Assembly: GCA_017617805.1 (NCBI GenBank)
Contig: JAFZVN010000088.1
Span: forward strand, 1 to 53,469
Length of the DNA: 53,469 nucleotides
Origin: Bacteroidaceae bacterium
Lineage (GTDB): Bacteria; Bacteroidota; Bacteroidia; Bacteroidales; Bacteroidaceae
Direction of reading: 5' to 3'
This document shows, in pieces, positions 30,520 through 37,639 of the stretch. The notes beneath the pieces were generated by a model. It saw only the letters and a program-made list of their open reading frames with translations, did no database searches and was not told the DNA's origin. A program made the position numbers and the translations under genes. Each line of letters begins with the position of its first letter. Within the stretch, counting starts at the first letter, position 1.

Positions 30520-31830
30520 TTAGGTTTTTATGCTCATTGTGAGCAAATCTGCAACAACAAAGCTACTTCCACCGACATAAATGAAGTCATTCGAGTTGGT
30601 ATCGTTTAAGGCAGCTTCATAGGCATCTTTCACGGTTGGATAGCTCTTGCCTTTCAAACCATATTGGAATGCGAGTTTTTGGATTTCTTCATGTGGTAAA
30701 GCACGTTTCACACTGGCTTGGCAGAAGTAATAAGTGGCTTCTTTGGGCATGATGGAAAGCACGCCACTGATGTCTTTGTCGTTGACCATACCAAAAACGA
30801 TCCGCATTGTGGCTCCCACATTATTTATTTTATAGGATACTTTTTTCAGCTGTTTCACAATCCAACGGAATCCTCCGATATTATGTCCTGTGTCGCATAC
30901 CACTTGAGGGGATTGTTGCAAGGTTTGCCATCTGCCCATTAGCCCTGTCATTTCACAAACATGGGAGAATCCGTTTCTCACATCTTCATCCGAGATGCTG
31001 AATCCTCGTTCTTTTAAGCGGCTCACAGCACAAAGAATCGTGTCTGCGTTTTTGTATTGACAGAAGCCACCAAGTTCTCCATGCAGCTTTCCATAATTCC
31101 TTGTTTGATAATCGATTCCTCCTTTTGTGCTGAACCGGTGTTTGATGACTTCCTTCTCGTTCTCAGCAAAGTAGATGGGGGCATTCATCTCCTGTGCCTT
31201 CTGTTCAAAGATAGGACGAGTTTCTTTCACCACCTCGCCAATTACCACAGGAATCCCCTGCTTGATGATACCCGCTTTCTCACCAGCAATTTTTGCTAAC
31301 GTGTTCCCTAAGAACATCACATGATCAAAACTGATGTTGGTGATGACACAGACTTCAGGCGTGATGATATTCGTGCAATCCAATCGACCTCCCAATCCAA
31401 CTTCCACTACAGCTACATCAACACCTTGTTCTGCAAAGTGTTTGAAGGCCATCGCCGTGGTTAGTTCAAAGAAGGATGGGTGTAAAGGTTCAAAGAAGGA
31501 ACGATGCTGCTCCACAAAGTTCACCACATAGCCTTCGCTGACCATTTCTCCGTTCACTCGGATTCTCTCCCTGAAATCCACCAGATGGGGTGAAGTGAAC
31601 AATCCCACTTTCAATCCAGATGCTTGCAAGATGGCTGCCAACGTATGTGAACAGGAACCTTTACCATTGGTTCCAGCCACATGCACCGTCTTGAATTGTT
31701 GGTGGGGATGTCCAAAATGGGCGTCTAATTGATGTGTATTGTAGAGTCCTTCCTTATACGCATCGCCTCCTACATGCTGAAACAAAGGAGCTGATGTGAA
31801 TAGGTAATTGATGGTTTCCTGATAATCCAT
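30520..31830 (-). CDS. folC: Folylpolyglutamate synthase / dihydrofolate synthase
   Basis: A 436-residue Mur-ligase-family enzyme that adds glutamate to dihydropteroate and to folates in the cytosol. Visible: the P-loop 'VHVAGTNGKGSCSHTLAA', 'GLFTSPHLVDFRERIRVNG', 'VAVVEVGLGGRLDCTNII', 'NISFDHVMFLGNTLAKIAGE' with the carbamylated-Lys region 'KAGIIKQGIPVV', and the C-terminal 'VCDTGHNIGGFRWIVKQL'. Full length. It is divergent from the sensor kinase gene and upstream of galM; the 149-bp gap to galM is AT-rich, with only a poor -7-like TTAATTTG at 30442-30449. Confidence 0.96.
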   Translation of the reverse strand: MDYQETINYLFTSAPLFQHVGGDAYKEGLYNTHQLDAHFGHPHQQFKTVHVAGTNGKGSCSHTLAAILQASGLKVGLFTSPHLVDFRERIRVNGEMVSEGYVVNFVEQHRSFFEPLHPSFFELTTAMAFKHFAEQGVDVAVVEVGLGGRLDCTNIITPEVCVITNISFDHVMFLGNTLAKIAGEKAGIIKQGIPVVIGEVVKETRPIFEQKAQEMNAPIYFAENEKEVIKHRFSTKGGIDYQTRNYGKLHGELGGFCQYKNADTILCAVSRLKERGFSISDEDVRNGFSHVCEMTGLMGRWQTLQQSPQVVCDTGHNIGGFRWIVKQLKKVSYKINNVGATMRIVFGMVNDKDISGVLSIMPKEATYYFCQASVKRALPHEEIQKLAFQYGLKGKSYPTVKDAYEAALNDTNSNDFIYVGGSSFVVADLLTMSIKT

Positions 31831-31933: not shown

Positions 31934-34900
31934 ATGAGTAAGATATACCACATATTGCCAGCAATTATTGTGCAAGCTGTTCTCCTTTGCTTGGGTGCAT
32001 GTGGGAACGCTCCTGCTGTGGATCAAGACCAGATTGATTCGCTCAATATGCTGGCACATCGCACGAAGTACCAGTCGCTAGACAAAGCTTCTGCTTATGT
32101 GGATGAAGTGCTGACAAACCATGCGACTTCCTCTTATCATGATGGTCTCTATGAGGCTTGGTTGAACAAGGGTGATGTGTATGGCATGCGGATGGACTAT
32201 GATTCAGCGCAGATTTGTTATCAGAAGGTGCTGGAAGAATCGAACAATGAGTTGATTCGCAGCATCGCCGATGTCGATATGATGTCAGTGTGTCTGATGA
32301 CTTCGATGAATAAGGAGTTTTATGACTATCGGAGCGATGCCAACGAGTGTATGTTGAGTGTGGCAGAAGAATCGGGTGATATGACAGAGCACCAGAAGGC
32401 TTTGTGGAATGCTGTGCAGACTGACTATCATTATGTGTCTGTCAATTATTTCATCAAGATGCGTCAGGATGAAGAGGTGCGTGAAGAATTTGATTGGCTT
32501 GAACAGCACCAGTCTCTGTTTGAGGCTGACACCACTCAGCTTTCCGCCTACTTGTTCCTGAAATCTTTAAGTGGTGGTGGAGAGGGTAATCAGGAAGAGG
32601 CTGCGGATGAGATGCAACGCAATCTGATTCGTCTGCTTTCCATGAGTAAGCAGAGTGGTTGCACATATTTTGAAATATCTGCATTAAATGCTTTGGCGAA
32701 ATCCATCATGTCTGGAAGTGAGATGCGTCCTTCTCGATGGGTATTCATCGAGGAACTGGCGGGTGAGTTTGGCTTCTCGCCGCTCGATTTCAGATTGGCG
32801 AATCGCGCGCTTCGGTTGTCCAAAGAATATGGAAATGATTTTGTCCAGACCACAGCTTTAGTGACCTTGTCAGACTTTTACCTGCGACACAATCAAGATA
32901 GTTTGGCAGCTGTTCAGATGGAGTATGCTTTGCACCTGATCAACGAGAACCATCGACAGATGTGTCACCATATTCATGCAACGGAACAGCACGATACGCT
33001 GTATGCCTATTCTGATTATGAAGATACGCTTTCCACAGAGATGAAGTGGATTGCTGATCCAGATGTGGTGTCCGTTCCTGAATGGATGGCGATGGTGCGT
33101 GAGCAATTGAGTGTGGTGTATGGTGCGATGGGGTTGAAGGCTGAATCTGATTACAACCACAACATCTATTTCGATATCTTGGATGCGACCCGTCAGGATT
33201 TGCGTGTGTTTCAAGAAGAAGACCATCTGATGCGTGAAGAACACATCCTCAATTTCCTGTTGTGGGGCTTTGTGTTGGCCATTGTGCTGCTTGTCTGGAT
33301 GCTGTATGTGTATAACAAACGCAGCCGTGCAGAGTACCATAAGAAAGTGGATAAGCTGAGTCAGGTGATTGAAGTGTGCAAGCATTTGTCCTCTGCACTT
33401 TCTGAGGAGGTTGAGGATGAAGCGGATTTGAATGCTGCTTTGCACAAGATTGCTGATGCGGATGTGGAGAAGCTCTTTCCGCAAGTGAAGGGGATGGATT
33501 GGACGCAGGTGAGCATCAAGTTCATGAAGGGTCTTGACCGTGAACTCTTCCATGTCCTTCTGGTCTTCTACGATTGGATGAAGCAGAAGGGATTGCTGTA
33601 TATCCGTTTTGCGGAACAGGAACGTCAATTGGAGAATGAAACTTATCTTTTCGAAAAGCGGTTGGAGGAGAACAAACGTCTCTATATTGAAAAGTTGACG
33701 TCCATGTCCATCGTTAATGGCATCACGCCTTTCCTTGATCGTGCCTTACATGAGGTGAATAAGTTGAAGACGGACAAGGCTCTTTCAGTAGAGCAGGTGC
33801 GTGAACGTTTTGGCTATTTGAGCGAGTTGATTGACAAAATCAACTACTACAATGATGTGTTGGGACATTGGGTGAAGATTCGTCAAGGTGTGGTGACGCT
33901 CAACATCGGGAATTTTGCCTTGCAGCCTTTGTTTGACACCTTAAAGAAAGGTGCTCGAACTTTCGATGCCAAGGGCGTGTCGCTGGCGGTGAACGATACG
34001 GAGAGTGTTGTAAAAGCCGACAAGTCCCTCACGCTCTTCATGATGAACACATTGCTCGACAATGCTAGGAAATATACCCCTCAGGGTGGAAAGGTGGAAC
34101 TTTGTGCTGAAGAGACAGCTGACTACGTGGAGGTGTCTGTGAAAGACACAGGACATGGAATGTCGGCAGAGGATGTCGATACGTTGAACAATGCCAAGGT
34201 CTATGATTCGAGCAAGATTGGCACCATTGGAGAGAATGCGTCAGACATCAAGCAGAACAAAGGTTTTGGCTTTGGTTTGATGAATTGCAAAGGAATCATA
34301 GGCAAGTACAAGAAGACCAATGCCTTGTTCAGCGTGTGTGAGTTTGGTGTTGAGAGTGAGGTGGGGAAGGGGAGCCGTTTCTTCTTCCGATTGCCCAAGG
34401 GTGTCTTGAAAACCCTGATGTGTGTGGTGATGCTCTTGCTGGGTGGTTCACTCCATGCCGAAGACCATTTCGCGCAGGCTAATGTTTATGCTGACAGCAT
34501 ATTTAGTGCCAATGTGTCTGGACGTTATGAAGAGGCTGTTATCTATGCTGATTCTGCTATCCAATGCTTCAACCAATATTATTTGGAACAGGTGCCATCA
34601 GGCAAGCATCTGATGCAGTTGGAGGGAAAAGATATGGCAGAACTCGAATGGTGGAAGTCTAGCTTAGATGCCGATTATGATTTGATTATCACCATCCGAA
34701 ACGAGGTGGCCATCGCTGCGTTGGCGTTGAATCGTAATAGTTTGTATCATTACAACACAGAGGTCTTTACTCGATTGTACAAGATGACCAGTACTGATCC
34801 CACCTTGGAGGAGTATTGTAATCACATCAAGATGACCAATCGCAACAAAAAGACCACTGTAATCCTTTTGGGCATCCTGATTTTCTTTGTCATTGCTGCT

Positions 34901-36133
34901 TACTTCTTCCTCTATTATCGCAACAATCAGTTGTTTGTGTTCAATTTGAGGCAATTCATTCAGTTGAACAACAACGTGTTCACTTCCACGAGAGAGACCT
35001 TGCCAGGTGTACTGCATCAGAGTCTTTCTGACATCAAGATGGCCGACACGGTAGGGATGATGTATCCATCAAATGACCATGCGGGCCACTTCAAATTCCA
35101 TTTCACAGGACTGGAGGCCGAGCGCAATGTGTATGAGAGCATGATGCAGTCGGCCTATATGCAAAAAGATGTGATGACCAGTGCAAACGGACATTTCCAT
35201 GCATATCCGCTCTTTATGCCTGGGTCGAAAGACACGTTGATTGGTGTGATGGGTGTTCGTTTCAACGATGGGAAGTTGACGGATGAGGAGTCGCTCATCA
35301 TGGATTTGGTGGCGCAGTTCATGAGTATTCATGCGTATTTCTCCCACTATAAGGTAGGCGAGATGCGTGAATTGATAGAATTGAAGCAGGACGAACGGAT
35401 GCGAGCTGACAATGAGCAGCAGAAAGTGTATGTGCGCAACCAGATTATGGACAATTGTCTTTCCACCCTGAAGCATGAGACGATGTACTATCCGAATCGA
35501 ATCAAGCAATTGGTGGATGCGGCTTTGAATCAATCTGATATATCGATTGATGAAGCTACCATCGCCGATATTGACGAACTGATGACCTACTACAAGGACA
35601 TCTTCACTATCCTGAGTGCTTGTGCAGGCAAACAGGTGGAGATGGTACTCTTCAAGCGCACGAAACTCTCAGCGCAGACCATTGGTGAGATGGCAACCCT
35701 CTCCTTCAAGAAATGGCAGAAGAAAGAGCGTACGAAGACTATGTTCATTGTGGCATCTCCGCAGGGCATACAGATTCAAGGAGATAAGATTTTCCTCCAA
35801 ACCCTTATTGACCAGATTCTCTCACTCTATTTCGAGCATCAGTCAGGTGGAGATTTGCGCTTGGATTTTGAAGAGTTGGATGGATTTGCTAAATTTGCGT
35901 TCACAGATACAGCTTATCGATATGATGAAGCAGAGATTCCTCAGCTCTTCTACATCGATCATGTGAAGTATGATGGAAAGAATGATACGCTTTCTGGGGC
36001 GCAATACATGATCAGCCGCCAAGTCATCAGGGAGCATGATGCTTACTCGCCCAATAGGGGTTGTCGCATCTATGTGGAGAACACATCTGATGGGAAAGGC
36101 TCCAGTTTCATCTTCACCTTGCCAACGATTTAA
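31934..36133 (+). CDS. Two-module membrane sensor histidine kinase (DUF5112/DUF5113-like), lipoprotein
   Basis: A 1399-residue protein starting with a lipoprotein signal (L20-G-A-C23), followed by a helical TPR-like periplasmic sensor. TM1 (about 438-460) leads to kinase half 1: a helix around 591-611 with no H-E-x-x-P box (only H606), then a full HATPase with N-box 'NTLLDNARKYTP' (about 705), G1 'DTGHGM' (738) and G2 'GFGFGL' (777). TM2 (824-842) returns to the periplasm for a second short helical sensor, and TM3 (976-996) leads to half 2: a GAF-like region, an H-box-like 'LKHETMYYPNRI' (His1181), and an ATPase-like domain lacking the N-box Asn and DxGxG ('TDTAYR'). The ORF could start at 31829, but signal peptide and promoter support 31934. 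The next gene encodes the likely partner response regulator. DUF names are from memory. Confidence 0.82.
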   Translation: MSKIYHILPAIIVQAVLLCLGACGNAPAVDQDQIDSLNMLAHRTKYQSLDKASAYVDEVLTNHATSSYHDGLYEAWLNKGDVYGMRMDYDSAQICYQKVLEESNNELIRSIADVDMMSVCLMTSMNKEFYDYRSDANECMLSVAEESGDMTEHQKALWNAVQTDYHYVSVNYFIKMRQDEEVREEFDWLEQHQSLFEADTTQLSAYLFLKSLSGGGEGNQEEAADEMQRNLIRLLSMSKQSGCTYFEISALNALAKSIMSGSEMRPSRWVFIEELAGEFGFSPLDFRLANRALRLSKEYGNDFVQTTALVTLSDFYLRHNQDSLAAVQMEYALHLINENHRQMCHHIHATEQHDTLYAYSDYEDTLSTEMKWIADPDVVSVPEWMAMVREQLSVVYGAMGLKAESDYNHNIYFDILDATRQDLRVFQEEDHLMREEHILNFLLWGFVLAIVLLVWMLYVYNKRSRAEYHKKVDKLSQVIEVCKHLSSALSEEVEDEADLNAALHKIADADVEKLFPQVKGMDWTQVSIKFMKGLDRELFHVLLVFYDWMKQKGLLYIRFAEQERQLENETYLFEKRLEENKRLYIEKLTSMSIVNGITPFLDRALHEVNKLKTDKALSVEQVRERFGYLSELIDKINYYNDVLGHWVKIRQGVVTLNIGNFALQPLFDTLKKGARTFDAKGVSLAVNDTESVVKADKSLTLFMMNTLLDNARKYTPQGGKVELCAEETADYVEVSVKDTGHGMSAEDVDTLNNAKVYDSSKIGTIGENASDIKQNKGFGFGLMNCKGIIGKYKKTNALFSVCEFGVESEVGKGSRFFFRLPKGVLKTLMCVVMLLLGGSLHAEDHFAQANVYADSIFSANVSGRYEEAVIYADSAIQCFNQYYLEQVPSGKHLMQLEGKDMAELEWWKSSLDADYDLIITIRNEVAIAALALNRNSLYHYNTEVFTRLYKMTSTDPTLEEYCNHIKMTNRNKKTTVILLGILIFFVIAAYFFLYYRNNQLFVFNLRQFIQLNNNVFTSTRETLPGVLHQSLSDIKMADTVGMMYPSNDHAGHFKFHFTGLEAERNVYESMMQSAYMQKDVMTSANGHFHAYPLFMPGSKDTLIGVMGVRFNDGKLTDEESLIMDLVAQFMSIHAYFSHYKVGEMRELIELKQDERMRADNEQQKVYVRNQIMDNCLSTLKHETMYYPNRIKQLVDAALNQSDISIDEATIADIDELMTYYKDIFTILSACAGKQVEMVLFKRTKLSAQTIGEMATLSFKKWQKKERTKTMFIVASPQGIQIQGDKIFLQTLIDQILSLYFEHQSGGDLRLDFEELDGFAKFAFTDTAYRYDEAEIPQLFYIDHVKYDGKNDTLSGAQYMISRQVIREHDAYSPNRGCRIYVENTSDGKGSSFIFTLPTI

Positions 36134-36188: not shown

Positions 36189-36908
36189 ATGGAAGCTTTC
36201 AAAGTAATTATTGTGGAAGATGTCGCCCTCGAAATGAAGGGTACAAAGGAAATCTTTCGTTCTGAGATTCCAGAAGCGGAAATCGTGGGTTCTGCCATGA
36301 ACGAGACCGAACTCTGGAAACTGATGCGTGATACCCAGCCAGACCTTGTCTTGCTCGATCTTGGTTTAGGTGGTTCCACCACGGCAGGTGTCGATGTGTG
36401 CAAGCAGTTGCGTCGTCGCTATCCTGATGTTCACGTGCTCATCTTCACAGGCGAAATCATGAATGAGAAACTTTGGGTGGATGTCCTCGACGCAGGTACT
36501 GATGGTATCATTCTGAAGAGTGGCGAACTCCTCACCAAGGGGGATGTGCAGAGCGTACTGAATGGTAAGCGTATGGTGTTCAACCAGCCCATCCTGGAGA
36601 AGATCCTGCAGCGTTTCCGCAGGTCTGTCCTCAATGAGTCCATGCGTCAGGAGGCTTTTCTCGACTATGATATTGACGAGTACGACGAACGGTTCCTGCG
36701 TCATTTGGCACTGGGTTACACCAAAGATATGATTTCCAATTTGCGTGGGATGCCGTTTGGGGTCAAGTCCATCGAAAAGCGTCAGAACGACCTCACCAAC
36801 CGTCTCTTTGGCGAAGACCACGAGCCAGTCAATGCCACTCGTCTGGTGACGAAAGCCATCGAATTGCGCATCCTCGATATCGACAATCTCGAACCCGATG
36901 ATGAATAA
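36189..36908 (+). CDS. Response regulator with REC domain and C-terminal HTH
   Basis: A 239-residue regulator. The REC domain (1-125) has the acidic pair E10-D11, phospho-acceptor D57 ('DLVLLDLGLGG'), T87 ('LIFTGE') and K110 ('IILKSGE'), so it looks phosphorylatable. The C-terminal part (about 165-207) is helical and resembles a LuxR-type HTH: 'DERFLRHLALGYTKDM' then 'GVKSIEKRQNDLTNRLF', suggesting DNA binding. It follows the sensor kinase gene by 55 bp on the same strand; the gap holds a direct repeat of ttaagaattgaaaa. It is almost surely the kinase's output. Target genes unknown; the following membrane-protein gene is a candidate. Confidence 0.9.
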   Translation: MEAFKVIIVEDVALEMKGTKEIFRSEIPEAEIVGSAMNETELWKLMRDTQPDLVLLDLGLGGSTTAGVDVCKQLRRRYPDVHVLIFTGEIMNEKLWVDVLDAGTDGIILKSGELLTKGDVQSVLNGKRMVFNQPILEKILQRFRRSVLNESMRQEAFLDYDIDEYDERFLRHLALGYTKDMISNLRGMPFGVKSIEKRQNDLTNRLFGEDHEPVNATRLVTKAIELRILDIDNLEPDDE

Positions 36909-36943
36909 AATATAGGAGATGGCATAAAGTGCCTGTGCTTGTC

Positions 36944-37639
36944 ATGAAGTACAAAGACTACATCCGACGCATCCTGCAATGTTACTTTTGGGGCATTGTG
37001 GCCGCACTCTTTCTTCTGCTTTTCGCCTCATGGGTGGTCAGCATCTATGTGGAAGGAGTGGAGGGCTTGCTCACGCCTCGTGGCATCCGATGGATGTGTG
37101 TCAACATCATTCCAAACTTTGCCAAAGTGCATTTGGCCAAGATGGTGTTGGGACTGATGGCCATGAGTGTGTTGCGCGAGTCGGGCATCATCGCTACCAT
37201 GCGTGGACACATCTCCATGAAGCAGAAGCGTGCCCTGCAGATTACGGGCATCACGGTTCTCATTGCCCTTTGTCTTTTTTCCTTGCTGTTGTTCTTGCCC
37301 AATGCCATCCTCCTCAGCGCATTCGGCACTTTCCAAAACTCTGCTTTCTCAAAAGGATTGGATGGTCTCATCATGTGTCTGGTCATCCTCATTGGCAACG
37401 TCTATGGCTATACCTCTGGGCGTTTCCTCACCATGAGCGACATCGTGCGTGGCCATGTGTCCATCTTCTCCACCTTGGCCAACTTCTTCGTCATCCTCTT
37501 CTTTGCCAGCCAATTGATAGGGTGCATCGAGTTCACAGGCATTCTTCCCTTGTTGGGCGATCAAGGAACAGCACTCTATTGGCTGCGAGGATTGCTCTAC
37601 AATGTCCCTCTGCTGCTCTACATCCTTTTGGCTTTGTAG
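36944..37639 (+). CDS. Hypothetical multi-pass membrane protein
   Basis: About 231 residues with five to six hydrophobic segments ('WGIVAALFLLLFASWVVSIY', 'ITVLIALCLFSLLLFLP', 'GLIMCLVILIGNVYGY', 'ANFFVILFFASQLIGC', 'NVPLLLYILLAL'). I do not recognise the family; a loose likeness to parts of AbgT-type transporters is not enough to name it. A GTG at 36929 is an alternative start, ten bases after an unusual Shine-Dalgarno-like aggag at 36914-36918. It lies 35 bp after the response regulator gene on the same strand, so it may be in the two-component operon or under its control. Its 3' end overlaps nth, on the opposite strand, by 22 bp. Confidence 0.75.
   Translation: MKYKDYIRRILQCYFWGIVAALFLLLFASWVVSIYVEGVEGLLTPRGIRWMCVNIIPNFAKVHLAKMVLGLMAMSVLRESGIIATMRGHISMKQKRALQITGITVLIALCLFSLLLFLPNAILLSAFGTFQNSAFSKGLDGLIMCLVILIGNVYGYTSGRFLTMSDIVRGHVSIFSTLANFFVILFFASQLIGCIEFTGILPLLGDQGTALYWLRGLLYNVPLLLYILLAL

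Follow-up and report, generated by a model that had tools for sequence, protein, structure and literature searches.

Our analysis of a 53,469-nucleotide stretch of DNA from a Bacteroidaceae bacterium (hereafter the window; GenBank assembly GCA_017617805.1, contig JAFZVN010000088.1) concerns a single gene at positions 31934-36133 of the forward strand, the one open frame of which translates into a double sensor kinase of 1399 amino acids. The protein is built of two kinase-like halves, and each appears to supply what the other lacks: half 1 has the ATP-binding boxes of a histidine kinase and half 2 has the phospho-acceptor histidine, His1181. Because the ATP boxes of half 1 and His1181 are conserved throughout our alignment and the DxGxG motif is missing from every half 2 in it, a division of labour between the halves is strongly supported at the level of sequence. 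The protein is probably a built-in heterodimer derived from a duplicated kinase, in which the half-1 ATPase would phosphorylate His1181 and the phosphate would then pass to the response regulator encoded next door. The features of the locus are listed below.

31934-36133, + strand: double sensor kinase (translation, Pfam), in the order DUF5112, DUF5113, transmembrane helix, DHp-like hairpin, HATPase and leader, followed after the leader by DUF5113, transmembrane helix, GAF-like region, DHp and degenerate HATPase
31934-32002, + strand: N-terminal signal with lipobox-like LGAC (Cys23)
32033-32728 (residues 34-265), + strand: DUF5112, sensor 1, TPR-like, presumed periplasmic (Pfam PF17139, E 4e-38)
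32882-33322, + strand: DUF5113 copy 1 (PF17140) and transmembrane helix (hydrophobic run, about residues 438-460)
33659-33898, + strand: half-1 DHp-like hairpin, with Asn at acceptor position 595 (33716-33718)
33899-34399, + strand: half-1 HATPase (PF02518; HATPase_c at residues 703-822)
34046-34078, 34145-34159 and 34262-34279, + strand: N, G1 and G2 boxes of half 1, respectively
34403-34459, + strand: internal signal-peptide-like segment between the halves
34460-34921, + strand: DUF5113 copy 2 (PF17140) and transmembrane helix (about residues 974-996)
34931-35353, + strand: GAF-like cytoplasmic region of half 2 (weak matches)
35354-35653, + strand: DHp of half 2; its phospho-acceptor box KHETMYYP spans 35471-35494, with His1181 at 35474-35476
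35654-36130, + strand: degenerate half-2 HATPase (PF02518 below cut-off; profile match against PDB)
36189-36908, + strand: response regulator, REC and DUF5932 (Pfam)
36929-37639, + strand: third gene of the cluster, encoding a short membrane protein of the AbgT type (PF03806, 48.6 bits against a cut-off of 27)

Complementary motifs in the two halves

Conservation was assessed in an alignment of 152 rows, the window and 151 relatives, to which the counts below refer unless another sample is named. The relatives comprise 96 distinct single-frame sequences from the first two locus sets and 55 sequences from further genomes across genera. Since rows were picked as single frames (at least 1320 amino acids in the first two sets, more than 900 in the further genomes), the single-frame state is not counted as a result within them. 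Below 70% identity, 91 rows remained as representatives. The second locus set (29 loci, L083-L111) held nine duplicates of rows in the first set of 80 loci, and one pair among the 152 rows (L024 and L137) is identical from residue 41.

In half 1, the window reads SIVNGITPFLDRALHEV at 592, NTLLDNARKYT at 705, VKDTGHGM at 736 and GFGFGLMN at 777, so that the N, G1 and G2 boxes are intact and lie where an earlier note, made from the window's letters alone, had placed them. N705, N710, K713, D738, G740, G742, G779 and G781 are each present in 152/152 rows and G777 in 149; N705 and D738 are likewise kept in all 91 representatives. Half 1 is the only half with an HATPase domain bearing all three boxes, in every row. 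A profile alignment of the two halves pairs Asn595 of half 1 with His1181 of half 2, in keeping with the note's remark that half 1 lacks an acceptor box in the window. Across the alignment, residue 595 is Asn in 76 rows, Thr in 37, Tyr in eight and His in only five, other residues making up the rest; a conserved His here is one of the observations that the note had named as fatal to its proposal. His606 of the window was considered as a substitute acceptor and rejected, the position being Asn in all 67 Bacteroides-type rows.

Half 2 presents the opposite picture. The window reads HETMYYPNRI at 1181, within a box beginning KHET, and K1180, H1181, E1182, Y1185, Y1186 and P1187 are each found in 152/152 rows. 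His1181 is kept in all 91 representatives and is the sole invariant His among the 1399 residues; H1368, which was considered as another acceptor, is present in 145 rows, sits in the degenerate ATPase and was rejected. The half-2 "H-box-like" histidine of the earlier note thus proved to be invariant, disposing of a second observation that would have told against the proposal, a variable His1181. That His1181 lies in a DHp helix is indicated by homology, the region aligning with the half-1 DHp.

The DxGxG motif, in contrast, occurs in 0/152 half-2 sequences, so that no row unites acceptor and ATP boxes within its second DHp-HATPase unit; the window reads DTAYR, with D1325 kept. The second N-box Asn is replaced in the window by Gln (Q1294). 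Here the note went slightly too far in one respect: loss of DxGxG holds throughout, but loss of the N-box Asn does not hold as a general claim, since Asn stands at 1294 in 104 rows. The general loss in half 2 therefore concerns glycines rather than every residue. By its matches, the C-terminus of half 2 is nevertheless a degenerate HATPase and no other domain: 20 of 24 scanned members match HATPase_c with E no higher than 1 (3e-10 at best), the window's copy scores 24.0 bits against PF02518 (cut-off 26.4), and a half-2 profile matches solved kinase ATPase domains in the PDB (best 3a0t, E 2.9e-5), although half 2 searched against the PDB as a single sequence gave no match. Median pairwise identity over 3000 random pairs is 0.59 for the half-1 ATPase and 0.33 for the half-2 ATPase. 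The complementary division of motifs that the note described in one protein is thus conserved among its relatives. The shortest aligned relatives (L176 and L181, 988 amino acids) keep the half-1 ATP boxes and His1181, but little is left of their half-2 ATPase region.

A single frame of 1320 amino acids or more encodes both halves in 76 of the 80 loci of the first set. The recurrence of this frame in independently assembled species led us to reject an assembly or annotation artefact, and it also sets the protein, as encoded, apart from a split histidine kinase, in which the ATPase part and the acceptor reside on separate polypeptides. Four loci of this set were excluded. In three, the kinase frame is broken in the assemblies, at profile positions (of 1442) of about 493 (L063), 450-458 (L067), and 617 and 1195 (L070), none of them close to the half boundary; in the fourth (L069) the frame has 774 amino acids and query coverage stops at 733. 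Three other loci (L136, L141 and L199) have no kinase frame. As for the start of the gene, the ATG further upstream, at 31829, is probably not the one used, because the entire stop-to-stop frame of one relative (L003) totals 1399 amino acids.

Membrane helices of the kinase were positioned by eye, and the DUF5112 (PF17139) and DUF5113 (PF17140) matches exceed their curated cut-offs. In the N-terminal signal, no fewer than 96 of the 97 rows compared have Cys23, and a strict lipobox pattern is present in 111 of 152. Matches of the half-2 cytoplasmic region to GAF_3 are weak (six of 24 scanned members, best E 2e-4), with none for the window's own copy.

Origin of the two halves

The proposal of an ancient internal duplication, also contained in the earlier note, is supported by our profile-profile comparison. 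With half 1 taken from residue 300, the halves are homologous and colinear over 483 columns (probability 99.8, E 2.4e-28) spanning DUF5113, the membrane helix, DHp and ATPase. DUF5113 is present in each half, scoring 81.1 bits in half 1 and 130.4 bits in half 2 when the halves are scanned alone. A sensor kinase gene encoding a signal sequence, a TPR-like sensor, a membrane helix, DHp and ATPase was probably duplicated in tandem and fused, after which copy 1 would have lost its phospho-acceptor His and copy 2 its ATP-binding glycines; the complementary loss of acceptor and ATPase parts is seen at the level of motifs.

What the gene before duplication would look like is suggested by an outgroup genome (G145, family f101), which encodes a single-unit kinase of 710 amino acids beside a DUF5932-type regulator. 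This kinase has a lipobox-like start, a TPR-like region, a membrane helix, the H box RHDMSPY and ATP boxes that, by eye, are intact; a second genome (G549) carries the same H box. Aligned with half 1, the G145 kinase covers 610 columns (probability 99.75); with half 2, the alignment spans 153 columns, in the ATPase (probability 98.3). As in the window, the sensor is followed by membrane helix, DHp and ATPase and a regulator adjoins, but the kinase is a single copy in which acceptor His and ATP boxes are combined. This likeness is one of form, and the branching order is not proven by a tree. In a quick search for an ATPase-domain tree (31 rows per half, two single-unit kinases, and 11 other kinases out of 12 loci tried), each half forms one clade, which places the split before the divergence of the sampled genera; the half-2 branches are long, and the halves are not shown as sisters.

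Phosphorylation path and alternative explanations

The neighbouring gene fits the proposed role of half 2. The regulator at 36189, to which the note had assigned the phosphate, has its phosphorylation residues intact: E10, D11, D57, T87 and K110 are each kept in 148 or more of 150 rows, and D57, the putative phospho-acceptor Asp, in 149. Of the 151 relatives, 148 have the regulator next after the kinase. Since 39 of the 152 rows had been retrieved via the regulator and their 39/39 adjacency is not independent, the relevant figure is 109 of 112; the misses are L042, L044 and L111, in the last of which the kinase frame runs to the locus end. We infer a path in which DHp1 and DHp2 would pair within one chain, the half-1 ATPase would bind ATP and phosphorylate His1181 of half 2, and the phosphate would move on to the REC-DUF5932 regulator encoded alongside, at its Asp57. 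That two different signals would both be needed is speculative.

How the halves meet allows a different solution. Sensor kinases as a rule homodimerise through DHp, normally as symmetric dimers, and the pairing of DHp domains is not fixed by sequence. The double kinase might therefore form a homodimer with DHp1-DHp1 and DHp2-DHp2 contacts, His1181 of each chain being phosphorylated by the half-1 ATPase of its partner. We regard this arrangement as rather unlikely; with both parts in one frame in those 76 of 80 loci, pairing within the chain is simpler.

Two further explanations deny the halves a joint kinase reaction. In one, half 2 would act in phosphotransfer and receive its phosphate from another kinase, and half 1 would bind ATP in a regulatory role without phosphorylating His1181. 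A stimulating partner role has been proposed for a catalytically inactive, laboratory-evolved ChrS variant (PMC9491836). The complete retention of the N-box, G1 and G2 residues in half 1 and the regulator encoded next door in 109 of 112 relatives speak against it, and we consider it improbable. In the other, the protein would be mainly a phosphatase or an ATP-gated switch for the regulator. Invariance around His1181 does extend to K1180, E1182, Y1185, Y1186 and P1187, beyond the acceptor itself. The phosphatase motif of HisKA kinases is E/D-x-x-T/N after the His, however, and it is absent here, the position being Tyr1185 in 152/152 rows, which makes this role very improbable.

Several observations weigh against a heterodimer within one chain that feeds its own regulator. 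Two kinases from Mediterranea-labelled metagenome assemblies (L042 and L044) have no adjacent regulator, and in one genome (G467) the regulator and the listed DUF5113 match lie on different contigs. The five rows with His at the half-1 acceptor position are L008, L178, L179, L192 and L193. DHp1 is conserved nearly like DHp2 (median pairwise identity 0.44 versus 0.47, 3000 random pairs), so that DHp1 is not just in decay. Pfam gave no HisKA match for the half-2 DHp. Finally, half 2 retains D1325 in 129 rows as well as Asn1294 in the 104 already mentioned, and the half 2 of L042 shows a GxGxG pattern near G2; because D1325 and Asn1294 are so often kept, half 2 may possess residual nucleotide binding.

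The AbgT-type protein and the join between the halves

In 93 loci, some of which repeat a genome, at least 800 bases lie beyond the regulator, and an AbgT-type frame comes next in 92 of them (the exception is L039). Stop-to-stop lengths fall into 31 frames of 485-506 amino acids and 60 of 153-303, with one of 400 (L138) cut by the locus end. When 16 of these proteins were aligned, the 11 short ones, including the window's, were found to be without two blocks, corresponding to about residues 96-235 and the last hundred residues of a full-length protein (L029:11116-12570), which aligns with the solved AbgT structure 4r1i over 7-483. The missing blocks hold the GYSAN/DPLLA and RIGDSxTN segments common to the full-length protein and 4r1i. 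In elevator transporters, including the AbgT proteins MtrF and YdaH, the transport domain binds substrate and the scaffold makes the oligomer contacts (PMC7329351). We take the short form to be a putative scaffold lacking the transport part, which may serve as a signalling partner.

The join between the halves has a character of its own. The last ATPase strand (FRLPKG) closes half 1 and is followed at once by a short hydrophobic segment, in which the median longest run free of DEKRNQHP is 13, compared with 20 and 22 in the two membrane helices. A loose lipobox ([GASN]C) occurs in this segment in 63 of 67 Bacteroides-type rows and 82 of 152 overall, against 1/67 and 3/152 in the first transmembrane helix and 12/67 and 13/152 in TM3 as controls. 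The strict pattern is found in 42/67 and 53/152 rows, and many of the remaining rows resemble, by eye, a signal peptidase I site. Half 2 thus seems to have retained its former signal sequence. One might go further and suppose that the join is a working internal signal, cut by signal peptidase I or II to yield two membrane-anchored subunits that form an obligate asymmetric heterodimer, with the short AbgT-type protein, reduced to scaffold-like parts, as a membrane partner feeding the signal. We put this forward tentatively and consider it rather unlikely.

On the other side of the kinase gene, folC lies divergently upstream in the window (30520-31830). FolC-like frames occur in the flanks of nine of the searched loci, eight of which belong to close relatives of the window.

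Distribution

Within the window's family, DUF5113 and DUF5932 were each detected in 192 genomes out of 251 and in 25 genera out of 30; the two genome lists disagree on at least G383, with the regulator alone, and G517, with DUF5113 alone. Named gut Bacteroides are among the relatives with the double kinase. In an order-level draw of 247 genomes, DUF5113 exceeded the cut-off in four: the window's genome, two of its family, and G164, the match of which was rejected as a kinase, being a TPR protein without one. Among five weaker matches below the cut-off, G174 alone was inspected, and it showed no kinase frame. Outside the window's family, DUF5932 exceeded the cut-off only in G145 (draws of 247 order and 295 class genomes), and in that genome's own family it was found in two of 60 genomes, G145 and G549; G795 and G865 gave matches under the cut-off.

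Relation to known systems

Pseudo-histidine kinases, and kinases split between separate proteins, have been described before. CheA3/CheA4 of Rhodobacter sphaeroides is a split histidine kinase, neither partner of which autophosphorylates alone (PMC3591291). As proposed here, the ATP-binding kinase part is on one unit and the phosphorylated His on the other, but those units are two proteins of the CheA type with a P1 domain, whereas the window's kinase is one chain of the DHp type with two sensor regions and, it seems, an internal duplication with complementary loss. Hik36/Hik43 of Synechocystis, also described as a split histidine kinase (PMC7656254), similarly spreads kinase functions over two units with one common regulator; its units are encoded by separate genes, and Hik36 has an HPt domain. 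DivL, named as a pseudo-histidine kinase (PMC9430884), and RetS, which forms a heterodimer with GacS (PMC12189002), are kinase-fold proteins acting on a partner kinase. Their partner is an independent kinase, whereas the halves of the window's protein would each supply the other's missing part. DivL and RetS chains were among the weak matches of the half-2 profile in the PDB (E about 0.05). Two kinase-type units per chain are also found in the kinase/pseudokinase tandem of JAK, a different enzyme class, and reportedly in an engineered monomeric EnvZ with tandem DHp domains. We found no paper on this protein, and no report of complementary halves in one natural chain, in the literature searched, which lacks most subscription papers. 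DUF5112, DUF5113 and DUF5932 are named by no paper in that literature, as far as titles and the starts of abstracts go, and the main text of PMC10197588 has no histidine-kinase passage.

The symmetry of ordinary sensor kinase dimers makes the roles of the two protomers hard to separate. Here, nature appears to have built the asymmetry into a single chain, in 25 of the 30 genera sampled from one family. The double kinase would thus lend itself to studying which of the protomers binds ATP, which one receives the phosphate and whether the two sensors are combined, and its reading as a built-in heterodimer, if confirmed, would assign a function to DUF5112, DUF5113 and DUF5932.

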